Shown here piece after piece: positions 7,816 through 13,799 of a stretch of DNA of 21,288 nt (the stretch's first letter is position 1; every line of letters starts with the position of its first letter). A program made the position numbers and the translations under genes. Source of the stretch: a virus; IMG/VR virus record IMGVR_UViG_3300028131_000049, positions 1 through 21,288 of that record; one strand, written 5' to 3'. A model generated the notes under the pieces. It ran no database searches, was not told where the DNA came from, and saw nothing but the letters and a program-made list of their open reading frames with translations.

Positions 7816-8508
7816 TTAATATGTCTGGATGATATCGTCGATGATGCCGTGTTTCTTACACTCCTCAGGGGTCAACCACTCATCTGTTGGGTGGAGGAGG
7901 TTCTTGCGGATGTACCGCTCAGACTTCTTTGTACACTTCTTGTAGTGGTCAATCATACGGGCGCTTGCCATGTCAAACTCTTTAACGATAGCCTGTAGTT
8001 CGTGTTCCTTCCCACGAGAACCCCAGCTATATTGATGTGACATAACTGAGGTGTTGTGTGTCAAGAGTCGTCGATCACCAGCCATAAGGGTGAGAACACC
8101 ACAAGAGGCTACCAGACCCTTACCGATAGTCACTACTGGAATCTCTGACATCATCATAGCGTCGATGAGGTGGAAGGCTGAGTGTACAGAGCCCCCAGGG
8201 CTGTTGATGATAAGAGTAAGCTGCTGTGGTCGTATCTCTTCGGGCATCAGGTTGTACTCGTAGATGGTAGCAACAAGAGGCATGATCTTTTCCTGATCAA
8301 ACTTGTCAACTAATAACATAAGTCCGTTCTCGCGGAGGTAGGAGCCAGGGGCCTGCATCTCTGGTGTTGGTTCAGGTGGGTTGCACTTAGGGCAGACAGA
8401 GGGTGCTGCTACAGGTTCAGAGGTCTTCGGAGTAACAGTCTTCTTCCTAGTGGCTGGTTTCTTGGCTGGTGTCTTCTTCTTAGCTGCGTTAATCATCTGT
8501 TCGAACAT
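7816..8508 (-). CDS. ClpP-like serine protease (cytoplasmic)
   Basis: 230 residues, family S14. The ClpP core runs from about residue 60: INSPGGSVHSAF (102-113), Ser135 in GLVASCGVL as nucleophile, His158 in VMSHQ and Asp209 in HPTDEWLT, so the Ser-His-Asp triad is complete. The oxyanion SPGG loop is present. The N-terminal 50 residues are an added Lys/Ala/Pro/Thr-rich tail followed by a CPKC motif (Cys39, Cys42). There is no signal peptide, so it should act in the cytoplasm. No AAA+ partner is encoded here, so it could use a host unfoldase or work alone. Phage S14 proteases often act as prohead proteases, but this one lies far from capsid genes and has its own promoter. AAAGGA precedes the ATG. 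Confidence 0.9.
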   Translation of the reverse strand: MFEQMINAAKKKTPAKKPATRKKTVTPKTSEPVAAPSVCPKCNPPEPTPEMQAPGSYLRENGLMLLVDKFDQEKIMPLVATIYEYNLMPEEIRPQQLTLIINSPGGSVHSAFHLIDAMMMSEIPVVTIGKGLVASCGVLTLMAGDRRLLTHNTSVMSHQYSWGSRGKEHELQAIVKEFDMASARMIDHYKKCTKKSERYIRKNLLHPTDEWLTPEECKKHGIIDDIIQTY

Positions 8509-8536: not shown

Positions 8537-8565
8537 AGTGTAACACACTGTTGCTAAAAGGTCAA
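8537..8565 (-). promoter_or_regulatory. sigma70-type promoter for the ClpP-like gene
   Basis: On the - strand TTGACC (8565-8560), 17 bp, TACACT (8542-8537). The -35 box overlaps the stop codon region of the SbmA-like gene, and no terminator separates the two genes. Confidence 0.75.
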
Positions 8566-9533
8566 GATGACTTGATCTGTGCCTCATACTCACGTAGTCG
8601 TTTGTACACTGAGATGAGCTCTATGATAGTGGGCCAAGACTTAATCAAGAACTGCATAGAACCCTCTACTCTACCAAAGGCACGGATGATTTGCTGCATC
8701 AAACCTAGTGAAATAAGACCACCTACAATAGCAGGAGCTAAGAAGATATAAGCAGTCAGGACATTAACTTGTAGATAGGCCATACGCACCACGTTAAACT
8801 TAAGGTACTGAAGATAACTAGTGAAGTGTATTGTACGTACATCCTCGAATAGCTCAGTTAACGCCTTAGGAGAGACAGTACCGTCGTCTTCCATCTTGAC
8901 AAGGTGTTTACGATACGCTGCTTCTTTCTTCTGGATGTCGTATTCAATGCCAACCAGCCGTAAGATATAACCACTAACAACAAGTAGCAAAGTACCGCCC
9001 AATGTCCAGACGAAAGCTCCTGTAACCAATCCATATTTCCAATCTCCAAACCAGAGGATAGACAACCCTGCGCCAAGACCCAGTAGTAGTGGGAAGAACT
9101 CGACGAGAATCATTACGCTCTCTATTAGTGAAACACCTAGACCTTCTACGATCCTCGTGTACTTGATCGTGTCTTCTTGGACACGTTGTGAAGCACCCTC
9201 AATGGTACGCCCTTTATCGAAGACCTCGTGGTACCACTCGACCATTGACGCTCTCCAGCGGAAGAGGAAGTGAGCGGTGACAAAGGAACCAACAAGACTG
9301 AGGGCAACCCAGGTACCAGCCAACCAACCAAAAGATGCAAGCCCTGCCCAGTACTCACCTATAGTCACAGACCCTGGGGTGGCAAGTGCCTTCTGGATCA
9401 GGTCGTAGAAGTCACCGAACCAGTGGTTAATCTGTACGTCTACTTGTACCTGTAACCATAGGGTACCTAGTATAAAGAAGGTGCCGAGGTAGGCCCAGAG
9501 GGCCCACTTCTTGCTTGTGTAAAAAACCCACAT
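8562..9533 (-). CDS. SbmA/BacA-like inner-membrane transporter
   Basis: 323 residues, a multi-pass membrane protein. From memory of E. coli SbmA it matches along its whole length: FYDLIQKAL (42-50), HFLFRWRASM (88-97), IEGASQRVQED (111-121), KKEAAYRKHLV (202-212) and a C-terminal LIKSWPTIIEL...YKRLRE region. SbmA/BacA proteins are proton-driven importers of peptides (microcins, bleomycin, Pro-rich peptides) without their own ATPase, and a relative in mycobacteria takes up cobalamin. No ATPase domain is present here either. Relative to SbmA it lacks about the first 70 residues, including the first membrane helix. I chose ATG at 9533 (TGATG overlap, GAAAGGAAG upstream) over the in-frame TTG one codon earlier. 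It is the last gene of the membrane operon. Confidence 0.92.
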   Translation of the reverse strand: MWVFYTSKKWALWAYLGTFFILGTLWLQVQVDVQINHWFGDFYDLIQKALATPGSVTIGEYWAGLASFGWLAGTWVALSLVGSFVTAHFLFRWRASMVEWYHEVFDKGRTIEGASQRVQEDTIKYTRIVEGLGVSLIESVMILVEFFPLLLGLGAGLSILWFGDWKYGLVTGAFVWTLGGTLLLVVSGYILRLVGIEYDIQKKEAAYRKHLVKMEDDGTVSPKALTELFEDVRTIHFTSYLQYLKFNVVRMAYLQVNVLTAYIFLAPAIVGGLISLGLMQQIIRAFGRVEGSMQFLIKSWPTIIELISVYKRLREYEAQIKSS

Positions 9534-9973
9534 CAACTCTTCCTTTCTGAGATGTCAGGGTTCTGCCAGTCGTCTATACGTAGTCCTTCGGCTCGTTCCC
9601 TATCTCCTTGTTCTTGGTCAAAGGAGCCACCCTGAGGAGACCCTTGCTCAGTCCTCTGCTTAGCTTGTTCTAGCTTTTCAGCATCATCCTGGTTGTAGGG
9701 GATAACGTAGAGACGATCACCTCGTTCTTTATCCCAGACCCATACCTTGATAAACTTACCTGTAGCTATATGGTGAATGTACAGGAACTCGTAGGATTGG
9801 TAGCCCTCGATGGGACTACCTAGTTGTTTAACGTAGTGTGTCTGCGTAACAGCCCCAAGTAAGATAGAAAGTGTAAGGGCTGATGCCTTAAAGAACCTAC
9901 CTAACTTGGAGTAGAACATAAGGAACACAACAAGTGTAACGAGTACTACGTATACTGTTTGAATGACTAACAT
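9533..9973 (-). CDS. two-helix membrane protein of unknown function
   Basis: 146 residues. Two hydrophobic helices (about 2-20 and 30-44) are separated by YSKLGRFFK, followed by a soluble domain with aromatic and beta-like segments (YEFLYIHHIATGKFIKVWVW, residues 61-80; then GDRLYVIPYNQDDAEKLE) and a Gln/Glu/Asp/Gly-rich low-complexity tail. I recognise no named family. The start overlaps the stop of the TolR-like gene (TAATG) and the stop overlaps the SbmA-like start (TGATG), so it is translated together with both. It may be an adaptor between the proton-channel-like pair and the transporter; that is inference from position only. Confidence 0.8.
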   Translation of the reverse strand: MLVIQTVYVVLVTLVVFLMFYSKLGRFFKASALTLSILLGAVTQTHYVKQLGSPIEGYQSYEFLYIHHIATGKFIKVWVWDKERGDRLYVIPYNQDDAEKLEQAKQRTEQGSPQGGSFDQEQGDRERAEGLRIDDWQNPDISERKS

Positions 9974-10557
9974 TATGGACCTTCCTCTCCTCTTAGTTTC
10001 ACTTCGATATCAGAACGAAGGTCCACTATCTCCCCGTCTACCACCCTGAAAGCCACAATAGTACGCTCCTGCCTAGGTGACAACGTAACAGAATCCTCGT
10101 GGTGTACCTTAAAGGGTTGGAGCCCTGTTATACGAAGGTTAACCGTTTCTGGGTCACCTTTCGATGAGAAGTAGTGTACGTTGATGATGTAGTCCCCGTC
10201 AGGCAAGACCGTCATAGTAGTGATCTCGTAGTTACGGGTAACCTCTACTCGCTCCCCGTTGATAACGAAAGTGTCACTGCCTTTACCAAGGTCATCCTTC
10301 TTTAGGGTTATGAACCCGTTGCTCTTGTACCCGTAGCTAACGATCTTACCGTCAGGACCACGGGTGTACAGGTCAAGGTCTCTTGTACTCTCATCATCCC
10401 ATGTCAACTCCACCATGATTACTACGGGTGGGTCAACCACCCCTGTTTTAGCGATAGGGTTTATCAACAGGAAAGCGATAACAAACAGAGAAGTGAAACC
10501 CACCAGGAGGTTAAACAACAAGTCAACGAACGCAAGGTTGCTTGAGTAACGTCTCAT
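9973..10557 (-). CDS. TolR/ExbD-like protein with DUF2135-like exported domain
   Basis: 194 residues. The short cytoplasmic start leads into one membrane helix (about 10-33) with an acidic residue at its beginning (AFVDLLFNLLVGF, Asp12), the place of the proton-carrying Asp in TolR, ExbD and MotB. The rest would lie in the periplasm. From residue 46 it resembles the YfaP/DUF2135 beta-sandwich: ELTWDDESTRDLDLYTRGP, then GDYIINVHYF. There is no OmpA-type peptidoglycan-binding or TolR-type C-terminal domain. The gene directly follows a TolQ/ExbB-like gene (one base between stop and ATG, GGAGG upstream), the usual pairing for such motors. The family call for the helix is likely; the DUF2135 call is tentative. 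Confidence 0.8.
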   Translation of the reverse strand: MRRYSSNLAFVDLLFNLLVGFTSLFVIAFLLINPIAKTGVVDPPVVIMVELTWDDESTRDLDLYTRGPDGKIVSYGYKSNGFITLKKDDLGKGSDTFVINGERVEVTRNYEITTMTVLPDGDYIINVHYFSSKGDPETVNLRITGLQPFKVHHEDSVTLSPRQERTIVAFRVVDGEIVDLRSDIEVKLRGEEGP

Positions 10558-10558
10558 A

Positions 10559-10990
10559 TCAACCCTCCAAGATGACTAGCTGTAGTTTTAACCAGAGTGA
10601 CGATAGGAGCCCTACAAGGGACGTTACAAGAGCAGTAGACATACCTGATGCAAGAACTCCGATAGCCTCTGTCATACTCTCTGTGGACGATGTGTCGATC
10701 TCTGTGAAGGCAGAGTCTAGTACAAGGAGGAACCCGAATAGAGTACCTACCATACCAAGGCTAAGAACTGCATCAGAGAGGAACCAGGACATGTTGTTAT
10801 CTTGTCCAACCATTTTCTTAGCACGTAGTCCCATCATGGACGATGAGATAATAGCTATACCTAGGATAATGAATGTCAACATTGTGCTGTCTGCTTCGTA
10901 TAACACATTACCTAGATTAAACCAGTACTGACCCCCTATAAGACCCAAGATACCGGCGTTAAACACGAAGTACCATTTCCAAGTTCTCAT
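10559..10990 (-). CDS. MotA/TolQ/ExbB-like proton channel subunit
   Basis: 143 residues, with hydrophobic segments near 6-26, 37-54, 72-93 and 108-133. The last two carry the family signature: LSLGMVGTLFGFL (77-89, compare LGLxGTVxG in TolQ/ExbB) and GVLASGMSTALVTSLVGLL (111-129, compare the A-L-x-T-T-x-x-G-L helix). It is shorter than ExbB/TolQ (about 230-245) because the large cytoplasmic loops are reduced. Such subunits form pentamers around a TolR/ExbD/MotB dimer and use the proton gradient to drive mechanical work; the matching partner gene follows immediately. AAGGA precedes the ATG by about 8 bases. Rare in phages as far as I know. Confidence 0.85.
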   Translation of the reverse strand: MRTWKWYFVFNAGILGLIGGQYWFNLGNVLYEADSTMLTFIILGIAIISSSMMGLRAKKMVGQDNNMSWFLSDAVLSLGMVGTLFGFLLVLDSAFTEIDTSSTESMTEAIGVLASGMSTALVTSLVGLLSSLWLKLQLVILEG

Positions 10991-10991
10991 C

Positions 10992-11627
10992 TTATAGTCC
11001 TTTCCGTAGGAGGTGCAACCTTGTTGAACCAGCGATACGGGTAGCAGCCCAGTTAGCTGGGAGGTCCCTTGGTTCCGTAAAGTCGTTATCTTTCATCTCA
11101 AAGAGTTTTAAGTCTTGTGTGGTAAGTAGTAGGAACGTACCAGAGTCTGTGTACCGGGAAACCATGTACGGTATCTGAAGCGTGTAACCCATGTTGAAGA
11201 AGTAACCAGCTGTCAAGGTACCCATATACTGACCTCCTTTTAAGCCATCAGAGAAGGTACCTCGGGCATTGTTAGCCCATGCCACATGGAACCCAAGGAG
11301 GCCCTCTGAGACCTTCTCTTTACCAGCTATAAAGGCCACAGCACAAGCGCTTAGACAGACCTCCCCTCGACGGACAACAGTTGTAAGACCGAGGTCCTTT
11401 ATTGTGTACCCAAGCTCGTACCCCTCCACAGCCACACCTCCGTTAGAGGACAGGACTAAAACCCTAATGCCTGTCTCCTCTACCTTAGCTCGTACCTTTG
11501 CTGAATCACCTTGGAGGATGTCCCCTGACAGATGGATGGCGTTTGATGTGGATGTGACGATGGCTGCGTGGGCGGAGCCTATGCCCAGTGTAAGGGCTGT
11601 TAGGACTCCTGCTAAACCTCGAATCAT
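10992..11627 (-). CDS. exported ClpP-like serine protease
   Basis: 211 residues with a clear signal peptide: MIRG, hydrophobic GVLTALTLGIG, and an A-H-A cleavage site after about residue 21. The mature protein has the ClpP/crotonase-type pattern of periplasmic ClpP-like proteins (COG3904): LVLSSNGGVAVEGYELG (57-73, oxyanion loop), CLSACAVAFIAG (91-102) with nucleophile Ser93, and GFHVAW with His114. The third catalytic residue is unclear (Asp161 is one candidate). Cys91 and Cys95 flank the Ser and could be oxidised in the periplasm. It overlaps the DUF3310 gene (ATGA), and the TolQ-like gene starts one base after its stop. It likely cleaves an envelope protein or a partner of the same operon. 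Confidence 0.85.
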   Translation of the reverse strand: MIRGLAGVLTALTLGIGSAHAAIVTSTSNAIHLSGDILQGDSAKVRAKVEETGIRVLVLSSNGGVAVEGYELGYTIKDLGLTTVVRRGEVCLSACAVAFIAGKEKVSEGLLGFHVAWANNARGTFSDGLKGGQYMGTLTAGYFFNMGYTLQIPYMVSRYTDSGTFLLLTTQDLKLFEMKDNDFTEPRDLPANWAATRIAGSTRLHLLRKGL

Positions 11628-12032: not shown

Positions 12033-13799
12033 TCAACTACACTCACGTTGACCTGTATTGACGTCGAAGTAACAGGCTCCTCCCTCTTTCTCATCGACGA
12101 AGTCACTGTTGTCCTCTTCTACTTTCTCCTCTACTACATCCTCGGAGGAGGAGGCGTTGAGGATGCCGTAGCGCTTACCAGAGGCACGGAAAGTAGTACA
12201 ACCAGATGCACCTCCGTCATACGCAGCCATGTACACAGCTTTGAACTCATCCCATGACACATCGTCACCTACGTTACAGGTCTTAGAGCAAGCACTGTCT
12301 ACGTAGCGTGAGGCTAGGTTAAGAACCTCTACGTGGGTCAACACAGGGAGGTCATCAGCCTTGCGGCCTTTAACACCGAATGTGCGGTAACCGTAGTCGT
12401 CTACACGTTCAACCCGTGGGCCATCGAAGGTCTGGATAGTACGGTCAAAACCGTAGGAGAAGACTGGTTCGATACCCGACGAGACGTTGTCAGCTGAGAG
12501 GCTGATAGTACCAGTTGGTGCTACACTGAGTAGGTGGCTGTTACGGATACCATAGCGGCTGATCCTATCCCGAATGTCTGTTGGTAGTGTCTTTGCGAAG
12601 TCACTGTCGAGGAACTCTTCGCGGTACAACGGGAACGGTCCTTTCTCAGCCGCAAGAGATACAGAGGCTATATACGCTGTGTCACGGATAAGCTTCATGA
12701 TCTTCATGAGAGTAAGAAGGAACATAGGGGAGCCATACTCGTGGCCCATAGCTTCGATAGCGTTAGCTACACCTGTGACCCCAAGACCCATACGTCTTTT
12801 AGACTTAGCTTCTGCCTCTTGTGAAGGAAGAGGGTATACTGCTCGGTCAACTACATTGTCCATAGCACGTACGACATGCGGGATGTCATGCTTAAGGCTC
12901 TCGTAGTCAAACGAGTAGGTACCGTCACACTCGTAGATGTACTTGACTAGGTTGAATGAACCAAGGAGACATGCACCGTTTGGTGGCAAGGGTTGCTCAC
13001 CGCATGGGTTAGTCGCTGCAATAGTCTCGCAGTAGTGCAGGTTATTCTTCTTGTTAATACGGTCGATGAACAAGATGCCTGGTTCAGCCCAATCCCATGT
13101 ACTACGCAGGATGTCATCCCACAGGGCACGGGCATTGACAGTGTCATAGACACGGCCTTCAAAGACTAAATCAAAGGTATCATCTTCTTTAACAGCTTGC
13201 ATGAACTTGTCTGTGACACCTACTGATAGGTTGAACTGTGTAAAAGCTGTTGAATTGGTCTTGGCGTGGATGAATGAAGAAATGTCAGGGTGGTCTACCC
13301 GCAGTACACCCATCTGAGCGCCTCTACGGTGGCCAGCTGAGCTGATAGTCTTGCATACTGCGTCAAAGATACCCATGAAGCTCAGAGGACCACTAGAGCG
13401 GCTCTCTAGGCCCTTAATGAGGGCACCTGAGGGACGGAGGGTACTGAAGTCATAACCGATACCACCTCCAAGCTGCATAGTCTTAGCAGCCTCTTGTGCT
13501 GCGAGCATGATACCTTCCATAGAGTCAGGGATGGTCATACTCACAAAGCAGTTGTAAGCCGTGACGCGTCTAGGAGCACCCATAGCTGATTGTACCCGTC
13601 CAGCCGGCATGAAGCGCATGTCGTATAGGATATCACGGAACTCTTGGAAGTGGTGCTCGTCGTCCTTGAGTGCGTTGGCAACCCGTGTCATAGCCGCTCG
13701 AAAGCTCTCACCCTTCGACCGGTACTTCATCTGGTGAATCTCTTCAGACAGACCGATTGTTGGGCCTACTGGGCGGTCTGATTCTGAGTTCTTGATCAT
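12033..13799 (-). CDS. nrdJ: class II (B12-dependent) ribonucleotide reductase
   Basis: 588 residues. It reduces ribonucleotides to deoxyribonucleotides with an adenosylcobalamin-generated thiyl radical, in one polypeptide and without an NrdB radical subunit. Visible: Cys84 in AYNCFVSM, active-site NPCGE (Asn264, Cys266, Glu268) and Cys277 in PPNGACLLGSFN. The spacing of the last two cysteines (11) is that of Thermotoga NrdJ. A C-terminal shuttle motif (ACYFDVNTGQRECS) ends the protein. No ATP-cone precedes the core. No nrdB-like gene is in the window. AAAGGATAG precedes the ATG. It follows a MazG and an HNH gene and probably shares their promoter at 14748-14776. It makes the phage dependent on host cobalamin. 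Confidence 0.95.
   Translation of the reverse strand: MIKNSESDRPVGPTIGLSEEIHQMKYRSKGESFRAAMTRVANALKDDEHHFQEFRDILYDMRFMPAGRVQSAMGAPRRVTAYNCFVSMTIPDSMEGIMLAAQEAAKTMQLGGGIGYDFSTLRPSGALIKGLESRSSGPLSFMGIFDAVCKTISSAGHRRGAQMGVLRVDHPDISSFIHAKTNSTAFTQFNLSVGVTDKFMQAVKEDDTFDLVFEGRVYDTVNARALWDDILRSTWDWAEPGILFIDRINKKNNLHYCETIAATNPCGEQPLPPNGACLLGSFNLVKYIYECDGTYSFDYESLKHDIPHVVRAMDNVVDRAVYPLPSQEAEAKSKRRMGLGVTGVANAIEAMGHEYGSPMFLLTLMKIMKLIRDTAYIASVSLAAEKGPFPLYREEFLDSDFAKTLPTDIRDRISRYGIRNSHLLSVAPTGTISLSADNVSSGIEPVFSYGFDRTIQTFDGPRVERVDDYGYRTFGVKGRKADDLPVLTHVEVLNLASRYVDSACSKTCNVGDDVSWDEFKAVYMAAYDGGASGCTTFRASGKRYGILNASSSEDVVEEKVEEDNSDFVDEKEGGACYFDVNTGQRECS

Follow-up and report, generated by a model that had tools for sequence, protein, structure and literature searches.

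The locus and its neighbourhood

The window analysed here is a virus record of 21,288 bases. By sequence comparison it is a phage genome related to Roseobacter phages, with a backbone colinear with that of Roseobacter phage CRP-13 and a DNA polymerase 64% identical. Three adjacent genes on its minus strand, called A, B and C below, are our subject. Gene A (10559..10990) encodes a 143-residue channel subunit resembling MotA, TolQ and ExbB. Gene B (9973..10557), separated from A by one nucleotide, encodes 194 residues that comprise a single helix with Asp12 and a predicted periplasmic, DUF2135-like all-beta domain (residues 47-181). Gene C (9533..9973), which shares one nucleotide with B, encodes a third conserved membrane protein, of 146 residues.

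An initial annotation had described A and B, at 9973-10990, as a two-gene device of the TolQR/ExbBD kind. Both reading frames were confirmed at these coordinates on the minus strand, and dN/dS values of 0.03-0.3 for A, B and C among the close relatives compared indicate that A and B are real genes under purifying selection. The adjacency of the pair likewise stands, but a third gene is conserved with it. B has flanking sequence of at least 1.3 kb to either side in 87 contigs, and in 84 of these A is the gene upstream of it; the three apparent misses are over-extended reading-frame starts, and A was found at all three loci. C lies downstream of B in 82 of the 87, and in four of the other five the next gene groups with C by BLAST. 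A-B-C is a conserved three-gene unit. A chance reading frame was set aside on the grounds of selection and synteny.

At the N terminus of C two helices are predicted; the protein also has a small alpha/beta domain and a tail that varies, and its AF2 model has a pLDDT of 86.9. A PDB fold search with C yielded no usable relative (best E 0.07), and no Pfam family was supported across C members. In both phages and chromosomes, the last residues of C tend to form a short lysine/proline motif, such as LLPEK or PPKD.

In the window the trio is flanked by a putative secreted protease and a peptide transporter. The former, encoded directly upstream of A (10992..11627, minus strand), is a putative ClpP/S49-like periplasmic enzyme, assigned from our own reading of a Ser...His arrangement; it had no Pfam match and only a weak one to phrog_30575. 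The transporter, an SbmA/BacA protein of 324 residues (8562..9536, minus strand), overlaps C by four nucleotides and matches PF05992 over the full length of the family (414.8 bits, E 3.5e-124, positions 2-315 of 315). The cassette ends in a ClpP-like protease lacking a signal peptide (7816..8508, minus strand; PF00574, E 6e-28). Two unrelated protease families occur upstream of A in different phage lineages: the ClpP/S49-like protein occurs in 45 contigs, in almost all of them directly upstream of A, and a trypsin-like protease (PF13365) takes its position in Rhizobium siphophages (21 contigs). Within the flanks covered, no protease lies beside the unit in the T4-like and Pootjesviridae types. 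SbmA (35 contigs) and the ClpP-like neighbour (37 contigs) follow C in the lineage of the window, and the window SbmA/BacA had no match in any cultured alphaproteobacterial phage record.

On one side of the cassette is ribonucleotide reductase and on the other the last early gene; glutaredoxin and PhoH occupy this place in CRP-13. Profile searches covering the initial 30 kb of CRP-13 and all of phage ICBM2 found no A, B or C, and tblastn with B matched neither phage. Given this absence from cultured relatives, the trio is an accessory cassette in the window. The adjoining ribonucleotide reductase gene (12033-13799) has ~23-30% identity to those of CRP-13 and ICBM2 amid many flanking genes at 60-70%, and was thus probably replaced.

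Gene A is a remote MotA/ExbB homologue

The window A protein scores 17.8 bits (E 0.003) against PF01618 (MotA_ExbB), for which the curated cut-off is 22.9 bits. The same family is matched by all eight A-family members tested, the window protein included (best E 3e-6), and two chromosomal relatives exceed the cut-off with 28.3 and 28.8 bits. A PDB search with A-family profiles retrieves MotA, ZorA, ExbB, TolQ and PomA. In hhalign, A aligns with Escherichia coli ExbB at E 3e-5, with GTLFGF opposite GTVWGI and the second pore helices also paired; E. coli MotA gave no useful match to A by this method. These Pfam, PDB-profile and ExbB alignments bear out the proposal that the larger subunit is MotA/ExbB-like, and on sequence grounds A is a remote MotA/ExbB homologue.

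The A family carries the pore-lining motifs GxxGT..G and T/S..G, as in MotA, TolQ and ExbB. Conserved positions are G79, G82, T83 and G86 in helix 3 and S124 and G127 in helix 4. By alignment column counts, G82 is present in 157 of 157 A copies and G86 in 156 of 157, a serine or threonine occupies position 124 in 157 of 157, and the threonine of the GT column (T83) is kept in 89 of 102 phage copies. We take the position 124 column to be that of TolQ T178 and ExbB T181. D34, between helices 1 and 2, is near-invariant, and in the window protein only ~45 residues separate it from the GxxGT motif. Hydropathy shows three strong helices in window A and four in some homologues; A thus likely has four helices in MotA-like order. 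Most phage A proteins have 130-165 residues.

Gene B combines a channel-type aspartate with an unusual periplasmic domain

Like the small subunits MotB, TolR and ExbD, B has a single N-terminal helix with a channel-type aspartate. Among copies covering the site, Asp12 is present in 97 of 97 phage and 11 of 11 prophage B proteins, so its expected conservation among homologues was upheld there, and both this conservation and the monomer model support its assignment as a channel-type residue on the B helix. It is also found in 34 of 44 chromosomal copies. The other ten form one clade (L155, L157, L158, L160, L161, L163 and L190-L193) with valine at the Asp12 column and an aspartate four residues, or one helical turn, earlier; an aspartate one turn before the column also occurs in most other chromosomal copies. 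A weak hhalign match pairs B D12 with MotB D32.

The AlphaFold model of B, built on a 48-sequence alignment, has a mean pLDDT of 91.6; in it, residues 3-32 form a helix, and 11 strands make up an all-beta domain between residues 47 and 181. Invariant residues of the domain (W53, D60, D62, L85, D88, G91, E111 and G121) include an acidic cluster, which leads us to suggest that the domain perhaps binds or depends on Ca2+; the PDB fold search with B lists calcium-bound proteins at insignificant E-values. The initial annotation had proposed a beta-sandwich in place of the usual TolR/ExbD or OmpA domain, and this agrees with the all-beta model and with the searches. Neither a TolR/ExbD nor an OmpA family is among the 25 Pfam families listed for the 48 members, hhalign gave no meaningful match of B to ExbD, and no OmpA-like fold is among the PDB fold matches listed.

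The further description of the domain as DUF2135-like holds in part. B aligns with E. coli YfaP at an hhalign probability of 93%, covering YfaP only in its C-terminal part, and four of the 48 B members have weak Pfam DUF2135 matches (best E 3e-4), but window B had no match to DUF2135 (PF09906) at E <= 1 and did not reach the curated cut-off. We therefore regard the domain as distantly related to DUF2135 and not as a formal member. Other weak Pfam matches among B members were to PPC and MotB_plug. A PDB fold search with B yielded no usable relative (best E 0.014). Four matches at E <= 0.001 came from a viral fold library; most of them lie within large phage proteins and indicate only that this type of domain recurs.

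Distribution in phages

About 100 B loci were gathered by scanning IMG/VR with sequence patterns and by running tblastn against annotated phages; an alignment of nine mixed B proteins was too divergent for pattern scans. A-B-C is conserved in ~90 virus contigs. Carriers with A before and C after B include zobellvirus-like podoviruses, T4-like contigs, large Rhizobium myoviruses (Pootjesviridae), Rhizobium siphophages of the 16-3 type and one 238-kb contig. B occurs in 27 Rhizobium and Sinorhizobium phage records, all of which name it hypothetical or p040, and A-B-C is unannotated in every phage record examined. The cultured carriers were reached through B, tblastn with window A having found nothing in cultured phages.

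The position of the unit differs by lineage: it lies in an early operon in the group of the window, beside lysis genes in Rhizobium siphophages and among replication genes in T4-like contigs. Thus, its timing points to no single function.

Some phages have insertions between A and B. Homing-endonuclease-type ORFs (Seg-like or GIY-YIG type) occur there in several Rhizobium phages and in Sinorhizobium phages (as in L007 and L009), and other phages have small ORFs without assignment at this place. Three IMG/VR contigs contain a tandem A-like copy (L012:3161-4614, L070:5568-6547 and L072:3781-4648), which is an in-frame chimera of B residues 1-36, including the helix with Asp12, and A from the loop between helices 1 and 2 onward. 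A normal B follows wherever the contig reaches far enough. Helix 2 of the chimera differs from that of A, and thus the chimera is probably not a plain assembly artefact.

A cellular counterpart in alphaproteobacteria

B is present in ~15% of sampled alphaproteobacterial genomes, mostly in a chromosomal A-B-C operon. In profile searches, 43 of 397 genomes in the order of Rhizobium and 69 of 385 in its class had B, ~60 of these 69 with a strong full-length match. Some of the cellular loci are prophages, and B is present in prophages of several rhizobia; most of the loci inspected are A-B-C operons beside ordinary genes. Pfam matches and our own reading identify these neighbours as amino-acid-kinase (pyrH-like), cytidylyltransferase, PqqC-type, radical-SAM, phosphoribosyltransferase, MazG and COX15 genes. 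Judged by homology and gene order, A-B-C is an uncharacterised operon of alphaproteobacterial chromosomes. In an unrooted tree of B, the chromosomal copies fall on one side of a branch with support 92, adjoining phage lineages.

Chromosomal A-B-C is often flanked by a gene for a Sel1-repeat protein upstream, weakly like flagellar MotX, or for a DUF3108-like lipoprotein downstream (for example, L156:5815-6384, L174:238-939 and L179:246-941). Both are possible periplasmic partners of A-B-C.

Cellular A carries ~70 extra residues between its second and third helices. From the periplasmic aspartate to GxxGT, chromosomal proteins mostly have ~110-130 residues, most phage proteins 38-55, and those of two small-genome phage groups 62-66. 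The larger subunit had been called minimal, and its 143 residues and MotA/ExbB relationship fit that word, but the small size reflects a cytoplasmic segment that is missing relative to the longer cellular version.

In the family searched around a Roseobacter genome, B was found in five of 249 genomes (~2%). Thus, a phage infecting such a host would in most cases supply a function missing from it.

A candidate envelope motor and its alternatives

Known motors of the 5:2 class power flagella and are also at work in nutrient uptake, cell division, gliding and phage defence. From homology we consider it likely that A and B would form an A5B2 proton channel-motor that passes movement to the B head, with C coupling or gating it. 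Five A subunits would surround a dimer of B helices, and the path of the protons would lead to Asp12 of B and along helices 3 and 4 of A, which are lined with Thr and Ser. This would set up a movement that is handed on to the periplasmic beta domain of B, which may act as the effector, perhaps in a Ca2+-dependent manner. C would be a dedicated membrane partner that couples A-B to its target or gates the channel. We infer that the phage would use this assembly during infection, and A-B-C is probably, on balance, a compact, phage-borne, ion-driven motor of the 5:2 class working on the host envelope. Its precise job is more speculative. The leading candidate is that the unit turns over or remodels periplasmic and outer-membrane material together with the secreted phage protease, and in the lineage of the window the released peptides may be re-imported by SbmA. 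We regard this purpose as doubtful, and the protease is not adjacent in every phage lineage, so that its link with the unit may be incidental.

Other readings of the unit draw on its differing settings. An accessory role in lysis, in which the proton-motive force powers a weakening of the outer envelope before or during lysis, in a spanin-like manner or against Tol-Pal, is suggested by Rhizobium siphophages, where the unit lies just downstream of the tail-fibre/endolysin region, with lysozyme and an Rz-like spanin in L099 and endolysin in L091. That spanin already lies beside the unit in L099, and replacement of a spanin is rejected there. Additionally, the window unit belongs to an early, replication-side operon (the related ICBM2 has its endolysin on the opposite strand with structural genes), T4-like relatives hold the unit among replication genes, and chromosomal copies have no lysis role; we consider a lysis function distinctly unlikely. 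Superinfection exclusion or lysogenic conversion, with the unit and the secreted protease altering the envelope so that injection by other phages is blocked, seems to us unlikely. It would suit the accessory, 'moron-like' place at the end of the early operon, the annotated attL that the unit adjoins in Rhizobium phage RHph_TM3_3_14B and the prophages of several rhizobia that contain it. However, relatives of the window were isolated as lytic phages, and the cellular homologues at the loci inspected are not beside recognised defence genes.

Phage A and B could instead act as decoys, either co-assembling with a 5:2 complex of the host or blocking it, be it Tol-Pal, ExbBD, Zorya or the host's own A-B-C. 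The shorter phage A (38-55 against ~110-130 residues from Asp to GxxGT) and the matches of A profiles to ZorA are compatible with interference, but the channel residues are kept under purifying selection, and a third gene and a transporter travel with the pair. Additionally, with B in only ~2% of genomes in the Roseobacter-type family, a host A-B-C target would be rare and a decoy unlikely there. Overall we judge interference very unlikely. Small phage membrane proteins are often holins, and the unit might be no proton device at all, with A a membrane protein of the holin kind and B serving as a structural or adhesion domain anchored in the membrane. This would agree with the presence of the B domain type inside large phage proteins, and is highly improbable given the specific MotA/ExbB homology, the conserved Asp, Thr and Gly columns and the A-B-C operons in chromosomes.

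For the motor reading that we prefer, it is quite possible, if short of probable, that A-B-C is the first recognised phage-encoded motor driven by the proton-motive force. It would then be a minimal 5:2 engine, perhaps the smallest in nature, and would power a periplasmic effector while the phage infects its host; it would also represent an envelope machine of alphaproteobacteria that has so far had no name, the phage form being its compact and independently transmitted version. If so, viruses carry their own engines for powering work on the envelope, in a version widespread in marine and rhizobial phages, and the small phage A could offer a minimal scaffold on which to study the conversion of proton flow into motion.

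Comparison with known systems

A aligns with the ExbB/TolQ pore helices (MotA helices 3-4) of the MotAB, TolQR and ExbBD 5:2 motors (PMC9389320). As in those systems, B has one helix with a channel-type aspartate followed by a periplasmic domain, and the genes are adjacent. Unlike them, the unit is phage-encoded and includes a third conserved gene, phage A is without the large cytoplasmic part, and B has a DUF2135-like beta domain where known small subunits have a TolR/ExbD or OmpA domain. A TonB-type system was set aside, no TonB-like gene having been noticed in the unit.

Generic non-flagellar MotAB-like transporters are similar in having a compact cytoplasmic domain and varied extra domains, which in the accessible portion of one account include DUF3450 and DUF2341 appended to A subunits and, on B, a compact fold that binds peptidoglycan (PMC12505986). 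That portion describes neither a B-type domain nor a protein C nor a phage-encoded motor, and across the accessible text of this source and PMC9389320 we found no phage-encoded motor and no B-type domain. Our literature search, with coverage mostly outside subscription journals, found no report of a phage-encoded ExbB/TolQ-like motor.

In the PDB sequence search with the A profile, ZorA of the Zorya system ranks with the top matches (8qyh and 8qyd). In contrast to ZorAB, no OmpA-like domain was found in B, A is without the long ZorA tail, and the unit is carried by phages, against which Zorya acts. Membership of Zorya was rejected on the absence of an OmpA domain in B; no ZorC-, ZorD- or ZorE-type partner was noticed beside A-B, the neighbours being the protease, C, SbmA and ClpP. 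DUF2135/YfaP proteins have the motif W..DxDL..P.G..Y in common with B, but no MotA/ExbB partner is annotated beside YfaP in E. coli.

With carriers such as Rhizobium phage 16-3 in culture, what A-B-C does can be tested directly. Phage 16-3 differs from the window in having an extra ORF between A and B, no SbmA and a trypsin-like protease upstream, but its p038, p040 and p042 correspond directly to A, B and C by homology and are arranged alike.
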